Assembly (NCBI GenBank): GCA_030037105.1
Contig: JASHRY010000151.1
Coordinates: forward strand, 1 to 15,797
Source: Xanthobacteraceae bacterium
GTDB lineage: Bacteria > Pseudomonadota > Alphaproteobacteria > Rhizobiales > Xanthobacteraceae
Length of the DNA stretch: 15,797 bases
Direction: 5' to 3'
Of the stretch, positions 1-15,000 are shown piece after piece. The position numbers were made by a program, and so were the translations under genes. Below the pieces are notes generated by a model, which saw only the letters and a program-made list of their open reading frames with translations, was not told the origin of the DNA and searched no databases. The stretch's first letter is position 1; every line of letters begins with the position of its first letter.

Positions 1-633
1 ATGTTCTCGTTTATTGAGGTATTGCCGCTGGTGCTGTTGATTATCGAGGCCATCAATCATTACCGGCTGATCCGCGCGCACCAGGAGTTCAAGTACCGGC
101 TCGCCTACACCTACATCATCGGCGCCGCCTTCTGGAACTTCGTTGGCGCGGGCGTCTTCGGCGGCGGCACGCTCAACGCGCCGCTGGTCAACTACTACGA
201 GCATGGAACCTTCCTGACGCTCAACCATGCGCACACCGCGCTGTTCGGCGCCTTCGGCGAGCTGGCGATCGGCCTGATCTATTTCTGCCTGCGCTACATC
301 CACGCTGAGCGTCCCGCCTTCAGTGAGAAGCTCGGGCTGTGGGCCTTCTGGCTCTACAATGGCGGCCTCGTCCTGTGGATCCTGCTCAACTTCTTCCCGA
401 TCGGCTGGCCGCAGCTTATCGCCGTCTATGAGCACGGGCTTGCTTATGCGCGGAGCAGCGATTTCTATAACGCGACGCTGTTCTGGCAGTGGATGCGCCT
501 GCCGGGCGACGTGGTGTTCGCGATCGGTGCGCTGCTGATGGCCTGGGACTTCATTGTCAAGCTGTGGCCGCTCTATCCGCGGGCGATCGACACTTGGCTC
601 AACACGGTCGAACCGCGTGCCCGGTCTTGTTAG
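1..633 (+). CDS. norB: Nitric oxide reductase large subunit, quinol-dependent type (C-terminal part)
   Basis: Partial gene; the 5' end lies before the window. The enzyme is an inner-membrane haem-copper-oxidase relative that reduces NO to N2O. The 210 visible residues are mostly hydrophobic helices. They include NHAHTALFGAFG (residues 75-86 of the visible part), whose two histidines fit the haem-ligating HxH of the NorB family. The end, with WQWMRLPGDVVFA and an AWDFIVKL tail, matches what I recall of single-subunit quinol NorB (NorZ) proteins. The first codon is ATG, but the text reads as the interior of a transmembrane helix, so this Met is probably internal and not the start; full-length qNOR is more than 700 residues. 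The stop is TAG at 631-633. No norC or norQD is visible, which fits the quinol type. Confidence is high for NorB and lower for the quinol subtype, because the diagnostic N-terminal extension is not in view. Confidence 0.88.
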   Translation: MFSFIEVLPLVLLIIEAINHYRLIRAHQEFKYRLAYTYIIGAAFWNFVGAGVFGGGTLNAPLVNYYEHGTFLTLNHAHTALFGAFGELAIGLIYFCLRYIHAERPAFSEKLGLWAFWLYNGGLVLWILLNFFPIGWPQLIAVYEHGLAYARSSDFYNATLFWQWMRLPGDVVFAIGALLMAWDFIVKLWPLYPRAIDTWLNTVEPRARSC

Positions 634-712
634 CGTCGCTTCGCCGGCCTCGGATGCCGCAGCGCGGGGCGCGCCGCGATCGTCCTTTGACGAGAGGGGG
701 ATTATTAGAATA
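634..712. other. Intergenic spacer downstream of the NO reductase gene
   Basis: Short GC-rich spacer between the NO reductase stop codon and the inverted-repeat element. I see no gene. A short CGCGG/CCGCG hairpin at 663-678 is too weak and lacks a T run, so I do not call it a terminator. Confidence 0.5.
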
Positions 713-866
713 ATACCAATGGCATTGAACAGTAATCCATGGCTGTCATCGTCCGCAAAGGCGACGGCGGACGATCCAGTCAACACCGATGTGTTAGCGA
801 ATACTGGATCATCCGCCTGCGCGGATGATGACACCAACACGAGTCAGCGTTTAATGCCGCCGGTAT
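713..866. repeat. 154-bp MITE-like element with 18-bp imperfect terminal inverted repeats, copy 1
   Basis: The ends are inverted repeats: ATACCAATGGCATTGAAC (713-730) and the reverse complement of 849-866, ATACCGGCGGCATTAAAC, matching at 14 of 18 positions. Inside is nested dyad symmetry: ATCGTCCGC/GCGGACGAT (748-756 with 767-775), ATCCAGT/ACTGGAT (774-780 with 803-809), AACAC/GTGTT at the apex (782-786 with 791-795) and ATCATCCGC/GCGGATGAT (808-816 with 821-829). A second copy in the same orientation lies at 8757-8909; by eye the two are roughly 85-90% identical. There is no coding capacity. It resembles the GTCATCGTCCGC-type palindromic repeats scattered through Bradyrhizobium-group genomes (recollection). 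GAATAAT occurs at 708-714 and 873-879, near both ends, but it is not a convincing target duplication. Confidence 0.8.
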
Positions 867-927
867 AACTCGGAATAATCGAATGGAAGTGAGGGGTGTG
901 AGGGGAGCTCCGTGCAAGCTTGGATAA

Positions 928-1065
928 CGAGGCTATGCCACTGGAGTTCATGATCTGCTGTTCGCGACTTGTGCTTTGCGGCGGGGATTTGAAATCGTAA
1001 CCCACAACGCGCGGGAGTTCGTTCGCGTCGACGGGCTCGGGCTTGAGGCTTGGCGCGACCGGTGA
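928..1065 (+). pseudogene. Remnant of a VapC-type PIN-domain toxin (C-terminal fragment)
   Basis: Reading frame 1 downstream of a TAA at 925-927 gives a 45-residue tail that ends at TGA 1063-1065. It contains GVHDLLFATCALRRG followed by EIVTHNAREFVRV and GLEAWRDR. This is the usual end of VapC toxins: a conserved Asp in a GxxDLLIAA-like helix, then LVTxNxREFxRVxGLxxExW. VapC proteins are Mg2+-dependent ribonucleases of about 130 residues paired with a VapB antitoxin. Here about two thirds of the gene, including the first catalytic Asp, is missing. There is no start codon with a ribosome-binding site and no antitoxin gene nearby, so I read it as a decayed relic. It sits between the 154-bp element and the peroxidase operon. 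A chance resemblance cannot be excluded because the fragment is short. Confidence 0.55.
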
Positions 1066-1111
1066 TGCCTCTAATTCGGTCGCGCTTTGCATGAAGGACC
1101 CCCAGGTCAAC

Positions 1112-1117
1112 AAGGAG
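1112..1117 (+). promoter_or_regulatory. Ribosome-binding site of the peroxidase gene
   Basis: AAGGAG, 6 nt before the GTG at 1124. This strong site decides the GTG start for the peroxidase. Upstream, TTGGCG (1050-1055) and TAATTC (1072-1077) with a 16-nt spacer form a weak candidate promoter for the operon. Confidence 0.75.
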
Positions 1118-1123
1118 TGAAGC

Positions 1124-2182
1124 GTGCCGTCCGCTGTTCCGCAACCGGTCGTCGCCCAGCTCACGCGGGCCGCCATTTTTCTCGTCGTGGCGATCAACTC
1201 CGGACGGGAAAGTGAAGCCGCCGTTCGCGCCTTGTGTGGCGATGTGGCCGCGCTTTTGCGCGCAGTCGGCTTCCGCGATCTCGAGGGGCGGCTGTCATGC
1301 GTCATGGCGTTTGGCTCTGACGCCTGGGACCGGCTCTTCGGCGCACCGAAGCCGAAAGATCTGCATCCTTTCCGCGAGATCCGCGGCCGGCATCACGCGG
1401 TTTCGACGCCGGGCGATATCCTCTTTCATATCCGCTCCGCACGCATGGACCTTTGCTTCGAACTGGCGACACAGATCATGTCAAGGCTCGGCGGCGCCGT
1501 TGCCACGGCGGACGAGGTGCACGGCTTCAATTACTTCGATAATCGCGACCTGATCGGCTTCGTCGACGGGACGGAGAATCCCGCGGGCCGGGCTGCTCTC
1601 GACGCAACCATCATCGGCGAGGAAGATGCCGCGTTCGCGGGTGGGAGCTACGTGATCGTACAGAAATACCTTCATGACCTGAAGAGGTGGAACGCGCTGC
1701 CGATCGAGGATCAGGAGAGAATTATCGGCAGGACCAAGCTTGCCGACATCGAGCTAAACGATGCTGTGAAGCCGACTTCGGCCCACAACGCTTTGACGAC
1801 CATTATCGAGGACGGGGAGCAATTGGAGATCGTGCGCGACAACATGCCGTTCGGCGACGTCGGGAGGGGCGAATTCGGCACCTATTTCATCGGCTACGCC
1901 CGGACCCCGCGCAGAATCGAGCAGATGCTCGAGAACATGTTTGTCGGCCGACCGCCGGGCAACTATGACCGCCTGCTCGACTTCAGCCGCGCCGTGACTG
2001 GCACGCTGTTTTTTGTGCCGTCGGCGACCTTTCTCGAAAATGTTGCGGCAGGGGAGGCTCTGTCGACCGCCGGCTTGGCGTCCCAAGAGCCCAAGGTTGG
2101 AGACGCATCCACGTCGCGACTGTCAACGCCCGACGGCTCGCTCGGTATTGGTTCTCTGAAAAAAGAGGCAGGATATGAATAA
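1124..2182 (+). CDS. dyp: Dye-decolorizing peroxidase (B-type DyP), encapsulin cargo
   Basis: 352-residue haem peroxidase that uses H2O2 to oxidise dyes, phenolics or Mn2+; its physiological substrate is unknown. Visible family marks are GFVDG (residues 145-149, catalytic Asp148), His221 in TSAHNALTT as likely proximal haem ligand, and Arg238 in VRDNMPFG as likely distal Arg. These correspond in order and spacing to the Asp, His and Arg of characterised B-type DyPs. After the domain (about residue 310) comes a flexible linker and then DGSLGIGSLKKE (337-348), the classic cargo-loading peptide that docks inside family 1 encapsulin shells. There is no signal peptide, so it acts in the cytoplasm within the shell. 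The start is GTG, fixed by AAGGAG 6 nt upstream. Its stop overlaps the encapsulin start by 8 nt (ATGAATAA), implying translational coupling and joint production of cargo and shell. Confidence 0.95.
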   Translation: MPSAVPQPVVAQLTRAAIFLVVAINSGRESEAAVRALCGDVAALLRAVGFRDLEGRLSCVMAFGSDAWDRLFGAPKPKDLHPFREIRGRHHAVSTPGDILFHIRSARMDLCFELATQIMSRLGGAVATADEVHGFNYFDNRDLIGFVDGTENPAGRAALDATIIGEEDAAFAGGSYVIVQKYLHDLKRWNALPIEDQERIIGRTKLADIELNDAVKPTSAHNALTTIIEDGEQLEIVRDNMPFGDVGRGEFGTYFIGYARTPRRIEQMLENMFVGRPPGNYDRLLDFSRAVTGTLFFVPSATFLENVAAGEALSTAGLASQEPKVGDASTSRLSTPDGSLGIGSLKKEAGYE

Positions 2183-2993
2183 TCTCCATCGGGAACTCGC
2201 CCCCATCTCCGACAAGGCGTGGGCGCAGATCGAGGAAGAAGCATCGCGTACCCTCAAGCGCCACTTGGCGGCGCGGCGGGTCGTGGACGTGCCGGGCCCG
2301 AAAGGCCTCGAATTCTCGGCCGTCGGCACCGGTCATCTTCATCAGATCCAAGCGCCCGGCGATGGAATCCAAGCTGTCCAGCGCGAAGCGAAAGCGCTCG
2401 TCGAATTGCGCGTTCCGTTTGAACTCACGCGGCAGGCCATTGACGACGTCGAGCGCGGCGCAACCGATTCGGATTGGTTGCCGGTGAAGGAAGCCGCGCG
2501 CAAAATCGCCTTTGCTGAAGATCGCTCCGTCTTCGAGGGGTATGCCGCAGCGGGGATTGAGGGCATTCGTGAAGGCAGCAGCAATCCGCCGGTTGTGCTT
2601 CCGTCCGATGTGAGGGGCTATCCGGGCGCAGTCGCGCAGGCGGTCAGCCAATTGCGGCTCGCTGGCGTCAATGGACCATACGCGCTTGTACTCGGTGCGG
2701 AGGCGTACACCGTCGCCAGCGGCGGAAGCGACGAGGGTTATCCGGTCTTTCACCATATTGAGCGTGTGGTGGACGGAGGCGTTATTTGGGCGCCCGCCAT
2801 TGAAGGCGGGTTCGTCGTCACGACCCGCGGTGGTGATTTTGAGCTGGATATCGGTCAGGACATCTCGATCGGTTACCGGAGCCATTCCAATACAGCCGTT
2901 GAACTATATTTCCAGGAGACATTCACGTTCCGACTGCTGACGACCGAGGCTGCCGTCGTGCTCGCCCCGGGAAGCAAGGAGTCCGCAAGATGA
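2175..2993 (+). CDS. enc: Encapsulin nanocompartment shell protein (family 1)
   Basis: 272-residue HK97-fold shell protein, formerly annotated as linocin M18/CFP29 bacteriocin. Family 1 encapsulins that carry DyP usually assemble into 60-subunit (T=1) icosahedral shells around cargo bearing a C-terminal targeting peptide. The N-terminus MNNLHRELAPIS, followed by an AW..IE.EA..T.KRHLA pattern and RRVVDVPGPKG (residues 34-44), is the hallmark opening of the family. Length is close to the usual 265-270 residues. Later marks are the LPSDVRGYP segment (142-150), LVLGAEAY (171-178) and the GQDISIGYRSH region (227-237) near the end. It starts inside the last codons of the peroxidase gene, preceded by an AGGCAGGA-like ribosome site, and its stop overlaps the next ATG by 4 nt (ATGA). 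No prophage head or protease genes are nearby, which argues against a phage capsid. Confidence 0.96.
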   Translation: MNNLHRELAPISDKAWAQIEEEASRTLKRHLAARRVVDVPGPKGLEFSAVGTGHLHQIQAPGDGIQAVQREAKALVELRVPFELTRQAIDDVERGATDSDWLPVKEAARKIAFAEDRSVFEGYAAAGIEGIREGSSNPPVVLPSDVRGYPGAVAQAVSQLRLAGVNGPYALVLGAEAYTVASGGSDEGYPVFHHIERVVDGGVIWAPAIEGGFVVTTRGGDFELDIGQDISIGYRSHSNTAVELYFQETFTFRLLTTEAAVVLAPGSKESAR

Positions 2994-3205
2994 CCAGGAG
3001 GTTCAAGGTCGGCGATCATGTAAGCTGGAATTCCGAAGCTGGTCGCGTGGCAGGAACCATCATTGCCATCCACATCACGGACTTCAGCTACAAGGGTCAC
3101 GTCCATCACGCTTCGCACGACGATCCCCAGTACGAAATCAAGAGCGACAAGACCGATCATATCGTGGCCCACAAGGGCGGCGCCCTTGAGCGCGCACCCA
3201 AGTAG
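2990..3205 (+). CDS. DUF2945 small protein (HVA1/TUDOR-like)
   Basis: 71 residues, whole protein. It opens with RRFKVGDHVSWNSEAGRVAG (residues 3-22) and continues with a GTIIAIHITDF strand, HASHDDPQYEIKSDKT and HIVAHKGGAL. That is the pattern of the DUF2945 family, also called hypervirulence-associated TUDOR domain: a small beta-barrel fold of unknown function. The ATG overlaps the encapsulin TGA by 4 nt, so it is probably translated by re-initiation from the same mRNA. It has no signal peptide and no C-terminal encapsulin-targeting motif, so it is unlikely to be a cargo loaded by the known route. A nucleic-acid or protein-binding role is possible from the fold, but nothing here shows it. Confidence 0.85.
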   Translation: MTRRFKVGDHVSWNSEAGRVAGTIIAIHITDFSYKGHVHHASHDDPQYEIKSDKTDHIVAHKGGALERAPK

Positions 3206-3215
3206 AGGCGACGGG

Positions 3216-3764
3216 GTGACGCTTCCGTTCTTCACGATCGGCCATTCCAACCGAAGCCTTGAGGAGTTCATCGAGCTGTTGAGCGGAGCTGAAATCGATC
3301 TTGTCGCGGATATCAGAACGGTTCCGAGGTCGAGAGCCAATCCGCAGTTCAACAAGGACACGTTTCCCGGCGCTCTGGCGGCCTTCGACATTTCCTATGA
3401 GCACATGGCGGCGCTTGGCGGTCTTCGTGGAAAAGCGCGAATCGCCTCTGAGGATGTCAACGGTTTCTGGGAGAACGAGAGCTTCCATAATTATGCCGAT
3501 TATGCGCTTACCGCGCAGTTTCACGCGGGTCTCGAGCATCTGCTCGATGAGGGACGCAAGCGGCGCGGCGCGATAATGTGTTCGGAGGCGGTATGGTGGC
3601 GGTGCCACCGCCGCATCGTTGCCGATTATCTTATCGCCTGCGGTGAAACCGTTTTCCACATTATGGGGAAGGGGCGCTTGGAGCCCGCCCGCCTTACGGC
3701 GGGCGCGGTTATTCAACCCGGCGGGACGGTCGTTTATCCCGGCGTGGCTCGATCGCATCGGTAA
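3216..3764 (+). CDS. DUF488 family protein
   Basis: 182 residues, beginning with TLPFFTIGHSNRSLEEFIELL. The TIGHSNRS opening, ADIRTVPRS (31-39), NPQF (42-45), CSE (122-124) and CHR (130-132, in WWRCHRRIVADYL) form the DUF488 signature. Biochemical function is not established; the conserved Cys, Arg and His residues suggest nucleotide or metal handling, which is inference. I chose the GTG at 3216 because AGAGG (3204-3208) stands 7 nt upstream and the conserved TIGHS motif follows at once. The longer open frame from 3063 would run across the DUF2945 gene and adds no conserved sequence. It lies 10 nt after the DUF2945 stop and is the last gene of the peroxidase-encapsulin operon. Its C-terminus (YPGVARSHR) carries no targeting peptide. 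Confidence 0.85.
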   Translation: MTLPFFTIGHSNRSLEEFIELLSGAEIDLVADIRTVPRSRANPQFNKDTFPGALAAFDISYEHMAALGGLRGKARIASEDVNGFWENESFHNYADYALTAQFHAGLEHLLDEGRKRRGAIMCSEAVWWRCHRRIVADYLIACGETVFHIMGKGRLEPARLTAGAVIQPGGTVVYPGVARSHR

Positions 3765-3786
3765 GCGGTGATGGAGTCATGTTTTG

Positions 3787-3802
3787 CCGCGCGCTCGCGC
3801 GG
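3787..3802 (+). terminator. Weak hairpin after the encapsulin operon
   Basis: CCGCGC-GCTC-GCGCGG forms a 6-bp GC-only stem with a 4-nt loop, 22 nt after the DUF488 stop and in the gap to the convergent oxygenase gene. No T run follows, so at best it is an atypical terminator. Confidence 0.3.
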
Positions 3803-3841
3803 GCGTCTATCAGCGGTGCAACTTTCTATTTCATAAAGTTT

Positions 3842-5164
3842 CTAAGTGTGTGCAGGGCGATATGCTTCCGCATTCGTTGTGAATTCCGCGCGCCCGTAGC
3901 GCGCCAGTTGCTTGGTTAATTTGCGGACCAGCGATCGGTCGGCTGCATTGCAGATAACCGGGATGCGTGCGGCGATCGCATAGATCGTCATCTGTGAGGC
4001 AATCACAATGCCGGCGACGGCGGCGGCGATGTAGTCGGACAAGCTGACTTCGACTCCGACCCTGGCCGCCGCGCTTTTACCGCCACGCACGAGATTTTTG
4101 ACGAAAAACACTTTGGTGAATCCGCGCTCGAGCCATGTGTGCAAGCGGCCGCGTACCGAGTGGTCCGACGTGAGATCCGCGGTAAGCATCGCGTGGACGA
4201 GAGCGGCACAATTGTCGTCGAAGCCTTTTCGTAGCGTGGCGTGGCGCGTCAGCAGCAGGTCGACGACGACCTGCGGCGTATCCGCGAGCAGATCGTGCGG
4301 CAAGCCCAGCAGGAAGCAGCGGTAACGGGCCAGTTCAACATGCGCGCGCTCGGCGGGCGTGAACGCCGTGCGCCCTTGGCGCAACGCCTCTCGCGCAATG
4401 ATGAAAATCGACATAAGGCCGGCCGGCATCTGGTCGACCTGCGGAATCGGAATGCCGTAGGTCTTGACGTCCCAGCGATTGCCGCGGCTCAGGATGTTGA
4501 ACCGCACCATCGAATGCATGAGGCGGACCATCGCCGCGGCTTTGAAGGCGGCGCCGTGACGATCGAGCACGTCGGGCATGACCGTCTGCGTGAAGAAGAT
4601 CGCCGTCTCGTTCACCCGGTGCGCGGCCGACTTGCTCGACAAGGCGCCGGTCAGCGCCATCGGCAAAGCGGCATACTTGTTCATGAAGGTTGCAATCAAA
4701 CCGCCCCGGATGATGAAAGGAGCCCGGTGGGCGTAAGCGTTGCGCTCGATCCGGGCGCCTTGTTCGATCAGCTTCGCGTCGAGCCAGGTGGGGAATTGTT
4801 CCATGTTCCGGATGAACCGAACGAGCTCCGGCGGAGCGGAGGGCACGTTCTCCACCCCGCGATCGCAGGCCTCCGTGAGCATCGCCACCAGCCGCTGGAA
4901 TCCGTATTGTGGAATTAGCGTGGCGTAGGCGTCGGCGACCGGGTCGCCGTGCATGGTGTAGGCCTTTATCAGCGCGACCCGCTCTTTGTTGACGAGCAGT
5001 TCCGGTCGCCGCGCGACAAACTCCGGCGCAAGCTCGGTCTCGTCGCCGGGCGACGCCGTGAAGCGCTCCGGTGTGATCGAAAAGTCGACGCGGCCGTACA
5101 TGGCGGGAAGCTGCGTCGCTTGGCCGGCATCCGCCGCGGTCGGCTCTGTGATCGATATGTTCAT
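3842..5164 (-). CDS. MpaB/Lcp-like haem oxygenase family protein (DUF2236)
   Basis: 440 residues. The central region resembles the oxygenase MpaB/latex-clearing protein family (DUF2236), b-type haem proteins that cleave isoprenoid or related carbon-carbon bonds with O2. The best mark is VRLMHSMVR (213-221): Arg214, His217 and Arg221 fit the RxxHxxxR haem-binding helix of Lcp-like enzymes. Before it are MNKYAALPMALTGALSSKSAAHRV-type helices (161-184) and FFTQTVMPD (190-198). Unlike secreted rubber oxygenases it has no Tat or Sec signal, so it is probably cytoplasmic; a hydrophobic stretch near 385-410 may be a buried or membrane-associated helix. The substrate is unknown. The ATG is supported by AGGAG 8 nt upstream (5173-5177). 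It is transcribed divergently from the TetR gene, with two likely operators between them, so induction by a ligand of the TetR protein is likely. Confidence 0.72.
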   Translation of the reverse strand: MNISITEPTAADAGQATQLPAMYGRVDFSITPERFTASPGDETELAPEFVARRPELLVNKERVALIKAYTMHGDPVADAYATLIPQYGFQRLVAMLTEACDRGVENVPSAPPELVRFIRNMEQFPTWLDAKLIEQGARIERNAYAHRAPFIIRGGLIATFMNKYAALPMALTGALSSKSAAHRVNETAIFFTQTVMPDVLDRHGAAFKAAAMVRLMHSMVRFNILSRGNRWDVKTYGIPIPQVDQMPAGLMSIFIIAREALRQGRTAFTPAERAHVELARYRCFLLGLPHDLLADTPQVVVDLLLTRHATLRKGFDDNCAALVHAMLTADLTSDHSVRGRLHTWLERGFTKVFFVKNLVRGGKSAAARVGVEVSLSDYIAAAVAGIVIASQMTIYAIAARIPVICNAADRSLVRKLTKQLARYGRAEFTTNAEAYRPAHT

Positions 5165-5381: not shown

Positions 5382-6101
5382 ATGGATGACAAAATGTCCG
5401 AAACCGTTACGGCCGTGCCCAAAAGCTCGAAAGTCCGTGCCGTCGCGAGCGCGGGCTACCGGAAGGGGGAGGAGACCCGGCAGCGGATTCTCGACGTGGC
5501 GCTGGAGGCATTCGGCGAGGCCTCCTTCAAGGCCGTGACGACGCGTCGTATTTCGGAGGCGGCCGGTGTCAGCCTGCCGACCCTGCAATATTACTTCGAC
5601 GGCAAGGAGGGTCTTTACCGCGCTTGCGCCGAAACTATTGTCGAACGGTATCGCCGCCGTACCGCCGTCGCCGCCGCCAAGGCAGCCGAAGCTTTGAACA
5701 AGGATCGCACGGTGGAGACGGCCCGCACCCACCTGAAGGCGCTAATCGGAGCCCTCGCCGGATTTCTGGTTGGGTCCAAGGAGGCGGAGCGCTGGGCCCA
5801 GTTCGTGGCCCGGGAATTGCGCGACCCCGGCCCGGCGTTCGAGATTCTGTATGAGCGGCTGTGGCGGCCGGGCGTCGACATCACGGCGCGATTGGTCGCC
5901 CGCATCCTCGGTAGCCCCGAGAGCGATCCGGCCGCCCGCATTCAAGCGCTGTTGCTTATCTCCAGCCTGCTGGCGTTCCAGTCCGGGCGCAGAATCTCCT
6001 TGCGCACCATGCACTGGTCGACAATCGGGCGTGAAGAGCTGGCAATGGTCCTGTCCAGCCTGGGCCTCCAGATCGACGCGATCGGCCGCAATCGATCGTG
6101 A
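5382..6101 (+). CDS. TetR/AcrR family transcriptional regulator (CecR-like C-terminus)
   Basis: 239 residues. After a polar N-terminal tail of about 30 residues, EETRQRILDVALEAFGE (30-46) opens a TetR DNA-binding domain. The helix-turn-helix is VTTRRISEAAGVSLPTLQYYF (52-72), with the usual YYF-GKE-L-Y ending. The rest is the ligand-binding and dimer domain and looks like the CecR/YbiH subgroup; FLVGSKEAERWAQFVARE (127-144) is the clearest part. The effector is unknown. The start is ATG at 5382; the in-frame ATG at 5394 is a close rival because neither has a strong ribosome site. It is divergent from the oxygenase gene across 217 bp with two matching palindromes, so it most likely represses both. 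It ends 84 bp before the convergent ATPase gene. Confidence 0.9.
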   Translation: MDDKMSETVTAVPKSSKVRAVASAGYRKGEETRQRILDVALEAFGEASFKAVTTRRISEAAGVSLPTLQYYFDGKEGLYRACAETIVERYRRRTAVAAAKAAEALNKDRTVETARTHLKALIGALAGFLVGSKEAERWAQFVARELRDPGPAFEILYERLWRPGVDITARLVARILGSPESDPAARIQALLLISSLLAFQSGRRISLRTMHWSTIGREELAMVLSSLGLQIDAIGRNRS

Positions 6102-6185: not shown

Positions 6186-8591
6186 TCAGGCGAGCTTGAG
6201 GCCGGCGAACAGCGGCGCCTTCAACAGGTCGAACGTCATCATGAAGACGATCGCCGCGCCCAGCACGGCGGCGACGACCCATGCCGGCAAGGGCGTCATT
6301 CCGGTTCCCGTGATCGCCAGCGTCGAGGCGATCAGCAGGTCCGCCACCGATGAAAGAATGAGCCAAATGCTCGGAGGCGAGGACCACCAGTGCCGGCGAT
6401 CCCGATTGGTGTAGCAGGTCGCCTGGTTGCCAAAGACGATGAGAATGAAGGCCAACGTTTGCAACGCGCCGATGCCAAATCCCATCCGATAGGCGCCGAA
6501 CGCCAGCACGAGCGTGCAGAACACCAGCTCACCGAGCCCCACGAGGACGCCGCCAACGGTGATCTTGTCGATCTGCCAGACGTTCGGTGCCGGCGACGGC
6601 CTGACATTGTCGGTCGTCAGCGCCATGCCGAGGAAATCGCCCGTGATCATGATGAGGACCATCAGGAAGGGCGTCAGGATGGCGTGTCCGGTCATGATCA
6701 GGCCGGTCGCGAGGAACAGCGCCTGCACCGTTTTCTTCGTGATCGAGTTCAGCGTGTAGCTGAGGATGCGCTGGAAGATCATGCGCCCGACCTTGATTCC
6801 GGCGACAATGCCGGCAAGCCCGGGCGCGGTGAGCACTATGCCGGCCGCCGATTTTGCGACGTCGGTGGCCGTCGCAACTGCGATGCCCATCTGCGCCTGG
6901 CGCAGCGCCGGCGCGTCGTTGGCGCCGTCGCCGCACATGCCGACGATGTGACCGCGGGCCTGCAGCGCCTTGACCAGCTTGTATTTGCCCTCCGGCAGGA
7001 CGCCGGCGAACACGGCATATTGGCTGGCATGGACCTGATCGGGAATCATGCCGGGCGGACAGACCGGACCGTCAAGTCCCACCGCATGGGCGACGATAGC
7101 CGCGGTTGTCGGCGCGTCGCCCGTCACCATCACGGTGCGCACACCGAGATCGTGAAGCTCGGCGATGAGCTGCGCCGAATCCGCGCGCGGCGGATCGCTG
7201 AGCGCGACCAATCCCGCCAGCGTCATCGCGCTCGACGGTCCCGCTGCCACGGCCAAGACCCTATATCCCTTCGCCTGGAGCTCCTCTGCCGCAGTGGTTG
7301 CCTCGGCCGACGGTTGAGCGAGCTTGCCGACCGCCGCGAAAGCGCCCTTGACGATCCGTTGCTGCTCACCGCTCGCATTCGCCGCCGTTGCCGAGGACAT
7401 CTTCGTCGTCGGGTCGAACGGCACGAATGCGACCAGCTTCGGCGTGTCGGGCGTTTGCTTTCCCCGGGCGGCCGCACGGATCGCACCATCGACCGGATCC
7501 TGCCCGCCGTCCGAACTGGCCAGCGCGGCGAGCGTGAGCACATGTGCCTCGTCGAAACCGCGCATCGGGCGAACGGCGGTCACCGTCAGCGCGTTCTGGG
7601 TCAGCGTGCCCGTCTTGTCCGAACACAGCACATCCATGGACGCGGCTTCGTCCACGGCGGACAGGCGGGTGGGGAGCACGCCCTGCCGCGCCAGGAGGCG
7701 CGCACCGAGCGCGGCGGCGAGGGTGAAGGTTGCCGGCAGCGCCACGGGTATCGCCGCCAGAATCGCGGTCAGGCCGAGCGATACGATATCGTCGAGCGGC
7801 ATTTTAAGGAACGAGGCATAGGTGACCAACAGCACGATGACTAGGCCGTTCAACGCCGCCAAATTGCGCACGACGCGTAAAACGGCGTTCTGCTGGGAAC
7901 TGACCGCATGCGCGGTCCGAACGAGTTCCGCGGTGCGGCCGAACTTGGTCTGCGGGCCGGTCGCCGTCACCTCGGCGACGGCCTCGCCGCGCCGCACCAA
8001 CGCCCCCGCATAGGTTTGCACGCCCGCGCCGGCCTCCACAGGCACGGACTCTCCGGTCAGCATGGATTGGTCGAGCAGAACTTCACCGCTTGTCAGGCGC
8101 ACATCGGCGGGAACCACGGCGCCGAGCGAAAGCTTCACGATGTCGCCCGGCACCAGCTCGGTCGCCGGCGTGGTCTTCCACTCTCCGTCGCGGCGCACGG
8201 AGGCGTTTAGCGCAAGACGGGACCTCAGCGCGGCGAGGGTCGCCTGGGCACGGCTCTCCTGGAACAGGCCGAGCACGGCGTTGAATACCAGGAGCGCGGC
8301 GATGATCGCAGCCTCGATATGCTTGCCGAGCGCCAATTCGAGCACGATGGCGGCTTCGAGCATCCACGGCACGGGCGCCCAGAATTTCCCGAGCGCCATC
8401 CGCAATGGACGAACGCTCGTATCCGGCATTGTGTTGGCGCCCAATGTCCGGAGCCGGTCGCGAGCCTCCTTGCTCGTCAGGCCGGCCTCCACGCCGGTGC
8501 CCGATTCGTTTCCTGATTGGGGGCGCCCGGCAACTGGGTTGTCGCGGGCAACTATCCCGCCTTCATTGATTGCTTCGGGCCGTGAGGGCAT
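6186..8591 (-). CDS. Plasma-membrane proton-efflux P-type ATPase (class IIIA)
   Basis: 801 residues; an ATP-driven H+ exporter of the inner membrane, related to fungal and plant PMA1 pumps. Marks in order: the first helix pair (about 72-110), actuator loop LTGES (178-182), IPVALP in M4 (281-286), phosphorylation motif DKTGTLT (325-331, Asp325), KGA in the nucleotide domain (415-417), VTGDAPTTAAIVA (489-501), the FAGVLPEGKYKLV segment (528-540) and hinge GDGANDAPAL (554-563). The last 200 residues hold about six helices, including ITGDFLGMALTTDNV in M6 with the Asp expected of proton pumps. IPVALP and no Cys-Pro-Cys or metal-binding N-terminal domain argue for H+ rather than a heavy metal. It lacks the long C-terminal autoinhibitory domain of plant pumps. 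The start is uncertain: no good ribosome site precedes the ATG, and the first 35 residues are not conserved in kind. Confidence 0.9.
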   Translation of the reverse strand: MPSRPEAINEGGIVARDNPVAGRPQSGNESGTGVEAGLTSKEARDRLRTLGANTMPDTSVRPLRMALGKFWAPVPWMLEAAIVLELALGKHIEAAIIAALLVFNAVLGLFQESRAQATLAALRSRLALNASVRRDGEWKTTPATELVPGDIVKLSLGAVVPADVRLTSGEVLLDQSMLTGESVPVEAGAGVQTYAGALVRRGEAVAEVTATGPQTKFGRTAELVRTAHAVSSQQNAVLRVVRNLAALNGLVIVLLVTYASFLKMPLDDIVSLGLTAILAAIPVALPATFTLAAALGARLLARQGVLPTRLSAVDEAASMDVLCSDKTGTLTQNALTVTAVRPMRGFDEAHVLTLAALASSDGGQDPVDGAIRAAARGKQTPDTPKLVAFVPFDPTTKMSSATAANASGEQQRIVKGAFAAVGKLAQPSAEATTAAEELQAKGYRVLAVAAGPSSAMTLAGLVALSDPPRADSAQLIAELHDLGVRTVMVTGDAPTTAAIVAHAVGLDGPVCPPGMIPDQVHASQYAVFAGVLPEGKYKLVKALQARGHIVGMCGDGANDAPALRQAQMGIAVATATDVAKSAAGIVLTAPGLAGIVAGIKVGRMIFQRILSYTLNSITKKTVQALFLATGLIMTGHAILTPFLMVLIMITGDFLGMALTTDNVRPSPAPNVWQIDKITVGGVLVGLGELVFCTLVLAFGAYRMGFGIGALQTLAFILIVFGNQATCYTNRDRRHWWSSPPSIWLILSSVADLLIASTLAITGTGMTPLPAWVVAAVLGAAIVFMMTFDLLKAPLFAGLKLA

Positions 8592-8680
8592 TGACGCGTC
8601 TGTGTGGCAGGACCCTCGACGGGGCGGATGGCGAATGACGATCGATCAGGCGATGAGGCCGTGACGGTATTTCTCCCGGA

Positions 8681-8725
8681 GCATGATCCGGAAAAGTGGG
8701 AACCGGTTTTCCGAAAAGATCATGC
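8681..8725. repeat. Dispersed 45-bp palindromic repeat of Rhizobiales type
   Basis: GCATGATC (8681-8688) pairs with GATCATGC (8718-8725), and CGGAAAA (8689-8695) pairs with TTTTCCG (8707-8713), leaving an AAAA bulge. I recognise GCATGATCCGGAAAAGTGGG..CCGGTTTTCCGAAAAGATCATGC as a sequence scattered in many copies in Bradyrhizobium and relatives (recollection, not a search). It lies about 90 bp upstream of the ATPase gene. Confidence 0.8.
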
Positions 8726-9001: not shown

Positions 9002-12000
9002 TCAGAACTTGTAGTTCACACCGGCGGTGCCGGTATAGGCCTGGAATTGGGTGTTGAACTTGGAATCGAGGCGCACGTAGGCGGACCAGCCGGAGTACCG
9101 GTTGAGCCAATCCAGCTGTACGCCGGCTTCGCCGTAAACTCCCGCGTAATTCTCGGCCAGCGTCAGCGGCGAGCCGAGATTGATCACGTTCACGGCATCG
9201 TTCTCGTACACCCGATCCCAAACGCGGCCGATGACCGACACTTCAAGATAATGCACGCGGTCGTCCATGATCACGCCGCCGACCCGCGCTCCACCGCCGA
9301 CATTGAGCATGTCGTTGTCGGGGAACTGGAGGGAGACCGCCGCCGCCGGCAGGTTGATGTTGCTGATACGGTTGTCGGCCCATTCCACGGACCCGATCGG
9401 CTCCAAGAAGTAGCGGCCGCGCTCGAAGCGATAGCCGATGTCGCCCACCACGCCCCAGGTCGTCGAGTACGCCGACGCGCCGGTCGAGCCGGGTATGTTG
9501 CCGACGTCAAGCGCGAGGAAATCGGCCTTGACCAGAGCATCGGCGAAGAAGCCGCGGTTCATGTAGGTGGCGGAGCCGCCGATCGTGCCGCCGCTGAAGG
9601 AGAGCGAGGTATTCTGCGGCGAAAGCGACGTGCCCATCGCGAAGGCAGAGGGCGAATTGAAGGTGGCGATCGAGTTGATGTAACCGCCCATGATGCTGAG
9701 CACCAGGGAGTCGTATTTCGACGTGACTTCGGCTGCGTCGAAGTCGACGCCCACAAGCGCGCCGCCGATGCCTTGGCGGAAGCTGGTGTCATACTGCGTG
9801 CTGGCGAACAGCGGATTGATCTGGCCGAGCCCCACGCTGCCGTTCTGGTTGGTCCAACTGCCGATCAGCTTGGTCCACATGCCGGAGCTGCAGACCGGCA
9901 GTTCCGGCGGCTGTTCCTTGACGGCGAGGTCGGTGCCGCCGCCATAGTCCAGGCCGGCGGCGGCAAAACCGTGGCGCATGCAGTTGCGGGTCTCTTCCTG
10001 GCGGTCGTACCAAGTGGTCGTGGTGGCGTCGAAAATGTTCAGCGCCGCCGCCGCGAAGGCCGGGGTCTGCGCCAGGAACGGTCCGGGCAGGCCGAACAGT
10101 TGATAGGCGGCGCCGCCGTCGTTGTTGGCGTTGTAGACCAACGGATAGATCCACAGCCCCTTCTGGATGGCGCCAAGCGCAAAGCCGCTGTTGGGGCCGA
10201 GATAATCGGGGGTGGAGGGATCGATTTCGAACGCCGTGGCGCTGGAGCCGCTGCCGGTCGAGCCTTGCACATGGACCAGCGTGATGCCGGTCGGGTTGTA
10301 GGCGCCGGGGCCGGTGTCGACGTCATTGACCTCGATGTAGGTCAGCCCGTTGACGTTGCCGCCCACCACCAGCCGGTCGGAAGTCGAGCCGGAGGCGCCG
10401 AGCTGGGTGTCGACCAACAGCTCGCTCGGCGGCTGCGACGGGCTGGTATCGCCGATGAAATCGTAGCCGGTGGCGGCGCTGTAGGGGGTCGGGGTGATGA
10501 ACTGGTAGGTGTAGTTGAGGTCGGACGTGCCGCCGAGCGAGGCGACGTTGAGGGTGACGGCGTTGTTGGGGGCACCGCCGTCGGCCTGCAGGTTGATCGT
10601 GCCGCCGGCATTGTTGAAGGTCGAGCCGCCGGCGCCGACGAAATTGAGCGAGCCGCGGTAGCCGGTCGCGGATTGCGCCTGCAGCGCCAGCACGTTGATG
10701 GTGCCGGTATTGGTCACGGTCTGCACCCCGCCGGCGGTGGTCGCGGTGGCGCCGGAGGAGAAATTGGTCTGCTCGCCGAGGACGCCGGCGGCGCTGCCGA
10801 CGTTGAAAATGCCGCTGGCCGGGTTCTGGTTGATCAACAGGTTGTTGAAGTTCTCCAGCGCCAAGAAGTCGACCATGCCGGCGGAGTTGATGGTGCCGCC
10901 GTTGGTGAGCGTGTTGATGCCGGTGCCGAAGGTGAACGTGGTCGGCGCGGTGTTGAAGATGTTGATGATGCTGTCGAGATTGTTGGTGAGCGTGTCGCCG
11001 CCGTCGGCGAAGGTGTTCGCCCCGTAGACGTCCCACACCGCCGCCGTGCAGATATTGTTGGTGCACAGGCCGTTGTTGATGGTCGAGCTGCCGGTTCCGG
11101 CCAGGAGCAGGCTGCCGACCAACAGGCCGCTGTTGTTGATGGTCACCGGGCCGCCGGCCGACTGCACGACGATGTTGTCGGCCGCGGCGGACGCCGACTC
11201 GATGGTGGCGCCGGTAAGGTTGTTGATCGTGGTCGGCCCGGTGGTGCTGACAATGTTGATGACCGGGTTGGCGGTGCTGGTGCCGAGACCGATGATCGAG
11301 GCGCCGGCCTCGTTGGTGAGCACCGCCGAGGCGGCGCCGGTCTGCGTCAGCGACACGCCGATGCCGGTTGGGTTGGTCACCAGGCCGTAATTGGTGATGC
11401 CGATCGGGCCGGTCACGGTCGAGGCGGCGATGCCGGCATTGCCGCTGCCGGCGCCGGTGACGGTGACGGTCGTCGCCACGTTGATGGTGGTGGTGCCGGC
11501 GCCGGTCTCGATGGTCTGGATGCCGTTCGCCGTCCCGGTGACGTCGGCGTTCGCGTTCTCGGTGATGTCGCCGCCGCTGGTGAGAGTGATGCCGGGATCG
11601 CCCGACGCCGCGGCATAGTTGGTCACCGAGACGCTGCCCGAGGTGCTGGTCACGTCGATGCCGTTGCCGCCTGCGCCGCCGTTGACGGCGGCGAAAGTCT
11701 GGATGGTGACGTTGCCGGCGTTGGTGGTCACGTCGATGGCGTCGCCGGTCGTGCCGGTGACCGTGCCGTCGGTGGTGATGGTGACGCTGCTCCCCGTGGC
11801 GCTGAGGCCCGTGGTCGAGGCGACAATGCCGACCGGGGCGGAGACGTTGCTCGCGCTCGAAGTCGACACGATCACCGAGCCGGTGGTGCCGCCGCCGGCG
11901 ATGATGCCGGTGCCGGTGGTGCCGCTCACGTTGCCGGTGGTCTGAACGATGACGTTGCCCGCCGTCGAGCTCGCGTTGATGCCGTTGACGCTGCCGGTGA

Positions 12001-15000
12001 CGGCCGCGGCGGTCACCGAGATCGCGCCGGCGTTGCTGAAGGCGTCGATGCCGTCGCCGGCGGTGCCGGTGACCGGGCCGGCGGTCGAGGTGACGGTAAC
12101 ATTGCCCGTGCCGAGCGAGTCGGCGTAGATGCCGTTCGTGCCGCTCACGGTGCCGCCGGTCGTCACCTGGATGGCGCCGCCCGTGGCGCCCGTGGCCGTC
12201 GCTGAGATGGCGTCACCTGTGGTGCCGCTCACGTTTCCGCTGGTCGTGACGGTGACATTGCCGCCCCCGGTCGAGTTCGCATTGATGCCGTAGGACGCGC
12301 CCGACACGGTCCCGGCCGTCACCGAGATGGCGCCGCTGTCGCTGCTGGCGATGATGGCGTCGCCGACGGTGCCGGTCACCGTTGCGACGTCGACCGTAAC
12401 GGTCCCGCTCCCGGCCGCAGACGCATCGATGCCGGTGGCGCCGGCGACTGTGGTGCCGGCGCTGGTCGACACCGAGACGTCGCCGTTGCCGCCGCTCTGC
12501 ACCGCGCCGATGCCGATGCTGGTTGTGCCGGTCACGTTGCCGGTGGCCGCAACCGACACGGCCCCGCCATCGCTCGATTGCGCGAAGATGCCGGAATCCG
12601 CGCCGGTCACGGTGGCGGCGGTCACTGAGATCGCGCCGCTGCTGCTCGAGGCGTCGATGCCGTCGCCGGCCGTGCCGGTGACCGTGCCGAGACTGCTGTT
12701 GACCGTGACCGTGCCGTCGCCGCCCGTCGCGGCATTGATGCCGGTGGTGGCGCCGGTGACGTTGGCGACCGCGACCGAGACCGCGCCCGAACCCGCGCTC
12801 GTGGCGTTGACGCCGAACGTGGTGGTGCCGGTGATCGTCGTTCCGGCGCTGTCGGTGACGATGACTGCGCCGCTGCCGGCGCCGGTATCCTGCGCGTTGA
12901 TGCCGATGCCGCCGCTGACATTGCCGCCGGCGGCAACGCTGACCGTGCTCGTTCCGGTCGAATCGGTGGTGGCGTTGATGCCGTAGTCGCCGGCGCCCGT
13001 CCCGCCGGTCGTAACGCCGGTGGTGATGACAGTCACCGGACCGCTGGTCGAGCTGGCGTTGATGCCGTTGGTCGTGCCCGTCACGGTCCCGGCCGTCACC
13101 GAGATCGCGCCGGTGTCGCTGGTGGCGGCGATGCCCTGGCCGGCGCTGGCGGTTACCGTTGCGACGTCGACCGTAACGGTCCCGCTGCCGGCCGCAGACG
13201 CATCGATGCCGAAGTCGGAACCGCTGACTGTGGTGCCGGCGCTGGTCGACACCGAGACGTTGCCGTTGCCACCGCTCTGGAACGCGTCGATGCCTTCCTT
13301 GGTCGTGCCGGTGACGTTGCCTGTTGCGGCAACCGTCACGGCTCCGCCATCGGTCGATTGGGCGAAGATGCCGGAATCCTCGCCGGTCACGGTGGCAACG
13401 GTCACGGAGATCGCGCCGCTGGTCGTGCCCGCGTCGATGCCGTCACCGGCGGTGCCGGTCACCAAGCCGCCGGCGCTGGTATTTACCAGCACCGTTGTCG
13501 TCGAATTGCCGGTGGAGAACGCCTGGATGCCGGTGGCGCCCGTCACGGTCGCGCCATCGGTCACCGTGACCGAAACGCTGCCGGTCGTGCCCGTCAAAGC
13601 CGTTGCGCCGCCGGCGATGATGCCGGTGCCGGCAGTGCCCGTCACATTGCCGCTAGCGGCGACGATCACGTTGCCGGACGTCGATGTGGCGTCGATGCCG
13701 TTGGTGCCGCCCGACACCGCGGCGGTGGTGACGGAGACTTGGCCGGCGTCGGAGGTCGCGGTGATGCCGTTGCCGGCGGTGCCGGTGACCGTGCCGGCGG
13801 TCGAATTGACATAAACGTTCGCGGTCAAGGCCGTTCCGGCCGTCGTGGCAAGGATGCCGTTCGTCGAACCGCTCACGGTTCCCCCGGTCGTCACCGAAAC
13901 GCCGCCGCCCCCGGCCCCCGTGACCGTCGCATCGATGCCGTCTCCGTCGTTACCGCTGACATTGCCGGTCGTGGTTACGTTGACGCTGCCGGCGACGCTG
14001 CTGGCGTTGATGCCGGTGGTGGCGCCGGTGACGTTGGCGACCGCGACCGAGACCGCGCCCGAACCCGCGCTCGTGGCGTTGACGCCGAACGTGTTGGTGC
14101 CGGTGATCGTCGTTCCGGCGCTGTCGGTGACGATGACCGCGCCGCTGCCGGCGCCGGTGTCCTGCGCGTTGATGCCGATGCCGCCGCTGACATTGCCGCC
14201 GGCGGCAACGCTGACCGTGCTCGTTCCGGTCGAGGCCGTGGTCGCGTCGATGCCGTAGTCGCCGGCGCCCGTCCCGCCGGTCGTAACGCCGGTGGTGATG
14301 ACGGTCACCGGACCGCTGGTCGAGCTGGCGTTGATGCCGAAGGTCGTGCCCGTCACGGTCCCGGCCGTCACCGAGATCGCGCCAGTGTCGCTGGTGGCGG
14401 CGATGCCCTGGCCGTCGGTCGCGGTTACCGTTGCGACGTCGACGGTGACGGTCCCGCTCCCGGCCGCAGACGCATCGATGCCGAAGTCGGAGCCGCTGAC
14501 TGTGGTGCCGGCGCTGGTCGATACCGAGACGTTGCCGTTGCCGCCGCTCGCGAACGCGTCGATGCCTTCCTTGGTCGTGCCGGTCACGTCGCCGGACGCC
14601 ATGACCGTTACCGCCCCGCCATCGGTCGATTGGGCGAAGATGCCGGAGGCCCCGCCCGTCACGGTGGCAGTACTGACCGAGATCGCGCCGCTGCTGCTCG
14701 AGGCGTCGATGCCGTCGCCGGCGGTGCCGGTGACCGTGCCGAGACTGCTGTTGACCGTGACCGTGCCGTCGCCGCCCGTCGCGGCATTGATGCCCGTTTC
14801 CCCACCGGTGACGGTGTTGCCGGTGACCACCTGCACATTGCCGGTGCCTGAAATGGCATTGATGCCGGTAGCGCCGGTACCGGTGTCGGTCACGGTACCG
14901 GTCAGGTTGACCGTCACGCTGCCGGAGCCATCCGTTGTCGCGTTGATGCCTTGGGTGGGGCTGCCCGCACTGCCACCTGCGCCGGTCACGTTGCCGCTGC

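Follow-up and report, generated by a model that had tools for sequence, protein, structure and literature searches.

A predicted DyP-class encapsulin operon from a Xanthobacteraceae bacterium and the DUF2945 and DUF488 genes downstream of it

A large survey recorded 1,505 DyP encapsulin systems, in which the cargo gene usually lies directly upstream of the shell gene, and describes the general function of DyP encapsulins as still speculative (PMC8346489). The solved system closest to the locus studied here is that of Klebsiella pneumoniae, represented by PDB entries 8u4z, 8u50 and 8u51 (DyP encapsulin by molecule name). The haem residues of the Klebsiella peroxidase are His225 and Arg242, and 1193 unique DyPs encoded in encapsulin operons are reported to carry a C-terminal tag of the form GSLxIGSLK (PMC10960027). 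According to the same source, the tag contacts Arg34, Asp38, Asp229 and Ile230 of the Klebsiella shell protein, KpEnc, and possibly also Thr217; when the first four of these residues were mutated, Asp38 had the least effect. An enterobacterial, transposon-associated DyP encapsulin has the same class of cargo and shell, and a stress function has been proposed for it (PMC12140327). A further arrangement of this type is annotated on plasmid pShin-01 of Shinella sp. HZN7 (NZ_CP015737.1), where genes for DnaJ, CbpM, a hypothetical protein, DUF2171, a second hypothetical protein, DyP, Enc, an oxidoreductase and DUF2945 follow each other in one direction.

The window, a 15,797-nt stretch of DNA from a Xanthobacteraceae bacterium, contains a peroxidase gene and a shell gene in the same order as in Klebsiella. 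The peroxidase gene (1124-2182, + strand) is an intact ORF encoding 352 aa; it begins with a GTG that is probably served by the Shine-Dalgarno-like AAGGAG read just upstream (1112-1126, including the start codon). Its product matched TIGR01413 with 296.4 bits (cut-off 100.5) and carries both the N-terminal (PF04261, 115.2 bits) and the C-terminal (PF20628, 203.1 bits) Dyp_perox domains. Among solved structures the best match (E=2e-148) was 8u4z, whose molecule name is 'Family 1 encapsulin-associated DyP peroxidase'. The three haem residues listed in a preliminary description of this DNA are all present: Asp148, His221 and Arg238. Asp148 lies in a GFVDG sequence starting at residue 145, the GXXDG motif of DyPs, and His221 and Arg238 align, at an offset of 4, with the proximal His and distal Arg of the Klebsiella enzyme. 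By analogy with these homologues, the window peroxidase is predicted to bind haem and to be active as a peroxidase. Toward its C terminus, at residues 337-348 (2132-2167, + strand), we found DGSLGIGSLKKE, followed only by the last residues, AGYE. This stretch, already picked out as a cargo-loading signal in the preliminary description, fits the GSLxIGSLK motif (PMC10960027); it reads GSLGIGSLK in the window, as against GSLNIGSLK in Klebsiella.

The shell gene (2175-2993, + strand; ATG start, 272 aa) is also intact. Its product scored 327.5 bits against PF04454, the Linocin_M18 or encap_f1 family (cut-off 24.3), and 358.3 bits against the encap_f1 equivalog model NF041155 (cut-off 100), so that the family scores of both members of the pair are far above their cut-offs. 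The top solved relative was 8u50, the shell of K. pneumoniae (E=4.6e-119), and identity to a Klebsiella plasmid copy was 66% over 268 residues; from homology to solved shells, an HK97-type fold would be expected. Close homologues of both proteins have been solved, in each case from DyP encapsulin systems, and the class is known from other bacteria. Sequence comparison showed that Arg34, Asp38, Thr217, Asp229 and Ile230 of the window shell are identical to those of KpEnc, five residues out of the 21 that lie near the tag by the count of PMC10960027, and judged on these five residues the luminal tag-binding pocket appears to be present. Furthermore, the gene directly upstream of and adjoining the shell gene encodes a DyP with a C-terminal targeting peptide, as is expected of a Family 1 system.

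As first described, the two genes overlap by 8 nt, ATGAATAA (2175-2182, + strand), in which the shell ATG occupies 2175-2177 and the peroxidase TAA 2180-2182. Directly upstream, codons 348-350 of the peroxidase supply GAGGCAGG (2165-2172, + strand), a Shine-Dalgarno-like stretch for the shell gene, and the end of the tag therefore doubles as a probable ribosome-binding stretch. Since the shell start lies within the last peroxidase codons behind this stretch, translation of the shell is probably coupled to that of its cargo. Among 79 related loci (see below), the two genes overlapped in 50, by exactly 8 nt in 32 of these 79, and did not overlap in 29; a loose purine motif preceded the shell start in 77 of the 79, a count made without a shuffled control. 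Overlap was commoner outside Actinomycetota (41 of 56 loci) than within (9 of 23), as grouped from record titles. The overlap is thus a common arrangement of the family and no oddity of the window, and the 29 loci that lack it indicate that such a system can do without coupling.

We also scanned for promoters. A sigma-70 scan of 600-3900 returned two sites against 1.0 expected, and no EcfG-type stress-promoter motif was found upstream of the window peroxidase gene; together these results leave stress regulation unsupported in the window. The idea of a general-stress promoter was rejected across relatives too: of 60 non-actinobacterial loci scored, counting the window, two had the EcfG-like motif upstream of DyP, where base-shuffled copies gave an expectation of 1.0.

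The related loci were assembled from 73 loci with a related shell, obtained by scanning one genome per species, and 15 stretches added from an evenly drawn set. From these 88, two duplicates (L086 of L016 and L087 of L013) were dropped and seven further loci without a DyP match or a matched shell start were set aside, leaving 79 that were scored. All 79 encode a DyP with L-x-[IV]-G-x-[LM] at its C terminus, with I at the third position in 75 and V in four; as all were found via the shell, this count does not measure how frequent the tag is in unpaired DyPs. The four loci with V (L077, L078, L085 and L088; SLAVGSLK or SLGVGSLK) have the same 8-nt overlap as the window. Given the solved close relatives, the identical pocket residues and the tag in 79 of 79 loci, the window locus is an ordinary, intact member of the commonest and best-known class of encapsulins, to whose 1,505 recorded DyP systems (PMC8346489) it adds one.

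Taken together, we are highly confident that the window holds a Family 1, DyP-class encapsulin operon whose tagged peroxidase is predicted to be loaded into the shell, with probable coupling of translation and a probable four-gene message, and no sequence feature of the window contradicts this reading. In the model that we propose, the peroxidase would be made with its C-terminal GSLGIGSLK tag. By analogy with studied homologues, folded DyP hexamers would dock through this tag into the pocket on the luminal side of the shell protein as the shell forms around them. The shell gene would be read from its start within the last peroxidase codons, the tag-end codons supplying the probable ribosome-binding stretch, and the message would probably run on into the DUF2945 and DUF488 genes. 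The predicted product is a small icosahedral haem-peroxidase compartment that would reduce peroxide and most likely help with peroxide stress.

The interval 1124-2993 given in the preliminary description is right for the peroxidase-shell pair; it omits two further genes on the same strand (2990-3205 and 3216-3764), and the 'one message' proposed there should probably be widened to include them. The first, a DUF2945 (Hva1_TUDOR) gene of 71 aa (2990-3205, + strand), matched PF11160 with 71.7 bits (cut-off 24.1); there is a 4-nt overlap between its ATG and the TGA of the shell gene. The second, a DUF488 gene of 182 aa with a probable GTG start (3216-3764, + strand), begins 10 nt after the DUF2945 stop and matched PF04343 with 117.3 bits (cut-off 22.2). 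No GSLxIGSLK-like tag was found in either window protein; for this reason a role as cargo was not favoured, and both are more likely to be accessory proteins. Structural comparison gave little further information: a search for solved relatives returned none at E<=0.001 for DUF488, one chance-level match for DUF2945 (E=0.46), and no match at E<=1 for profiles A1 and A2. An AlphaFold2 model of DUF488, built on an alignment of 27 sequences (the window, four loci and 22 of 120 listed proteins), had a mean pLDDT of 53, too poor for a fold search.

The surroundings of the pair differ from those of the described systems. In Klebsiella, a formate dehydrogenase gene lies upstream and an RpoH-like gene downstream (PMC10960027); in the window, there is a COX1-type gene, truncated at the window edge, on the upstream side of the pair and DUF2945-DUF488 on the downstream side. 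The enterobacterial system is flanked by transposases and accompanied by FDH and RpoH (PMC12140327), whereas no transposase was seen among the nine ORFs scanned in the window. Among rhizobial and Shinella DyP encapsulin loci, plasmid pShin-01 has the same 8-nt overlap (5001-5008 of locus L092) and a same-strand DUF2945, but has an oxidoreductase between shell and DUF2945 and DnaJ, CbpM and DUF2171 upstream. Accessory genes that the survey names for Family 1 DyP systems include SDR, cupin, DUF1345, DUF5709, 6-GPD and DAPDC, and its main text contains no mention of DUF488, Tudor or hypervirulence (PMC8346489). Our literature search, at the level of titles and abstract openings and with few subscription journals covered, found nothing linking DUF2945 or DUF488 to encapsulins, no paper naming both encapsulin and DUF2945, no paper joining encapsulin with ClpB and peroxidase, and no description of a two-gene DUF2945-DUF488 module.

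We then asked how regularly the downstream genes accompany the shell. Of the first 73 loci, some of which have short flanks, eight have DUF2945 downstream of the shell at no more than 200 nt and five more at about 1.1-1.3 kb; in none of the 25 actinobacterial loci was it seen there. In the 11 relatives with DUF2945 close by, the gap from shell to DUF2945 was 19-79 nt, only the window having -4 nt, and in seven of the 11 DUF488 then follows. As the first locus set had been chosen by shell similarity, we also sampled 198 genomes evenly across one alphaproteobacterial family, the one to which G002, the genome carrying L014, belongs. PF04454 was found in 21 of the 198 (G068 and G222 by weak partial matches) and PF11160 in 35, once in each; the two occurred together in 11 genomes, where about 3.7 would be expected. 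Fisher's test gave p = 1.2e-4 (3.3e-5 when G068 and G222 are left out), to be taken as a guide only, since the genomes are related rather than independent and the centre genome G002 itself has the arrangement. Of these 11 genomes, seven (G002, G005, G006, G008, G119, G158 and G189) have DUF2945 directly downstream of the shell on the same strand and three (G083, G127 and G183) have it elsewhere; in G177 the encapsulin runs off the contig end. DUF2945 was present in all 13 encapsulin-bearing genomes of one set, 11 of which had been picked for DUF2945 near the shell, and in only 13 of 34 other encapsulin-bearing genomes. One of the seven, G008, contains a second encapsulin match with an internal TGA (contig C267, 2358-3110, - strand), which is adjoined by a DUF488 match (1877-2251).

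The DUF2945-DUF488 pair also occurs on its own. The two genes were within about 0.4 kb of each other in at least 12 genomes lacking a PF04454 match (G085, G090, G152, G173, G180, G191, G195, G199, G210, G214, G224 and G238). In at least two more, G127 (where the DUF488 match has an internal stop) and G183 (where the two genes are on opposite strands), the pair is away from the genome's own encapsulin, and in G009 the pair and the encapsulin are on different contigs. Because they are neighbours without an encapsulin or away from it, DUF2945 and DUF488 form an independent module that sits behind the shell gene in some lineages, a recurrent but not exclusive companion of the encapsulin in the lineage of the window.

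What this companionship means can be read in two ways. The first, to which we give an even chance, is that DUF2945 and DUF488 are mere neighbours, stress genes of the kind that gather in genome islands, sharing no function with the compartment. The independence of the module fits this explanation, as does the mobility of the shell gene: a related shell was found on 63 plasmid records and its closest matches cross phyla (some taxon labels of metagenome assemblies may be wrong), from which we conclude that the DyP-encapsulin operon probably moves between lineages and that its neighbours may be hitch-hikers. On a Sphingomonas plasmid (locus L093, NZ_CP037914.1), the DyP-encapsulin pair is flanked by uvrB-uvrA on one side and a PRC-barrel gene on the other, and a conjugation gene and a transposase are nearby. 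Mere clustering is harder to reconcile with the 4-nt stop/start overlap in the window and with the repeated, immediate, same-strand placement of DUF2945 on the shell tree. In this tree (56 rows), loci with DUF2945 close to the shell occur in three clades with good support (L074-L076; L008 with L014, L020, L024, L033 and L071; and L041 among Shinella relatives) and in two single rows, L010 and the window; its deeper order being unresolved, the tree does not separate repeated gain of DUF2945 from loss.

The second, more tentative possibility is that the DyP operon of certain Hyphomicrobiales has grown into a stress-defence cassette whose genes are linked at translation. The four window genes at 1124-3764, which overlap or almost touch, would then be one unit in which the Tudor-like DUF2945 protein and DUF488 cooperate with the compartment, perhaps providing reductant or shielding nucleic acid or protein; in relatives the partners would be DUF2171, ClpB or DnaJ/CbpM, a 2-hydroxyacid dehydrogenase, or an NDH-2-like oxidoreductase. 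Such a unit is suggested by the position of DUF2945 directly behind the shell in 7 of the 11 genomes (of 198) with both genes, by a co-occurrence p of about 1e-4, by the short shell-DUF2945 gaps of relatives and the -4 nt of the window, and by the one-direction run from DnaJ to DUF2945, DyP and Enc included, on the Shinella plasmid. Other gene families recur as well. Among 74 loci (the 73 and the window), ORFs near the pair belonged to a DUF2171 family in 19, a ClpB-like family in 11 and a pyridine nucleotide oxidoreductase family, NDH-2-like by its NDH2_C match, in 11; a 2-hydroxyacid dehydrogenase family (formate-dehydrogenase-like), presumably what PMC10960027 calls 'formate dehydrogenase', was present in 7. 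Each of the four families was named from one member. A cassette with shared function sits less well with the module's adjacency in at least 12 genomes lacking an encapsulin match, with the absence of DUF2945 from 21 of the 34 further encapsulin-bearing genomes, and with the separate contigs in G009. Gene content around the pair, moreover, varies among the 74 clustered loci, and of the accessory genes named here and for the Shinella plasmid the window has only DUF2945, with no ClpB, DUF2171 or oxidoreductase beside the pair.

That the overlap and tag of the DyP encapsulin operon are accidents joining an unrelated peroxidase and shell gene is vanishingly improbable: we found no point in support, tag and pairing recur in 79 of 79 scored relatives, and loading has been demonstrated for the homologous Klebsiella pair (PMC10960027). 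Among the few hints at what the compartment does are its conserved neighbours, and DUF2945 (in places with DUF488), together with the ClpB, DUF2171 and NDH-2-like oxidoreductase genes of relatives, are named candidates for deletion tests; the downstream DUF2945-DUF488 genes are thus a modest new lead beside an otherwise familiar system.

Finally, we compared the window with other genomes and inspected its remaining features. Among 22 chosen genomes, the four-gene stretch was best matched by Xanthobacteraceae genome G002 (76% DNA identity over 1111-3741). Taken by itself, the peroxidase-shell pair was better matched by a Nitrosospira (83% DNA identity) and by a Nitrospira-labelled assembly (82%); the Nitrosospira shell matched that of the window at 87%. 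The best matches of the COX1-type gene, of those searched, were in two Gammaproteobacteria-labelled assemblies (83% over 1-416 and 80% over 1-573). A 47-bp palindromic interspersed element (8679-8725) was matched 41 times in G001 (Bradyrhizobium) and 8 times each in G002 (Xanthobacteraceae) and G003 (Bradyrhizobiaceae), with two weak matches in G007 (Shinella) and one marginal match in G015 (Binataceae-labelled); it had none in the other 9 of the 14 genomes searched, which include the Nitrosospira, four Gammaproteobacteria-labelled and two Nitrospira-labelled assemblies. Judged on this distribution, an origin in Hyphomicrobiales is likely, and with it the alphaproteobacterial placement of the preliminary description, although the closer matches of the pair and of the COX1-type gene speak against it. 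The element is similar to a portion of two Brucella sRNA models, at scores well short of the gathering thresholds; an Rfam scan of the window gave three matches, none at the family gathering score, and no tRNA was found in the window. The ORF at 9002-15763 (- strand) encodes a repetitive protein of 2253 aa in which Gly, Thr, Ser and Val are abundant; it had no Pfam match at E<=0.001, and it may be truncated, its start being near the end of the window. It resembles a giant autotransporter adhesin. A P-type ATPase (6186-8591, - strand) is near the plasma-membrane proton-pump type, with 605.5 bits against TIGR01647, just under the cut-off of 615.5; in a search that scored at most two candidates per genome, 5 of 385 sampled class members had matches at E<=1e-150, the best full-length match having 65% identity and a partial match 70%. 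A protein with an MpaB/latex-clearing-type oxygenase domain (3842-5164, - strand) faces away from a CecR-type TetR regulator (5382-6101, + strand), and the two may possibly form a regulated pair.
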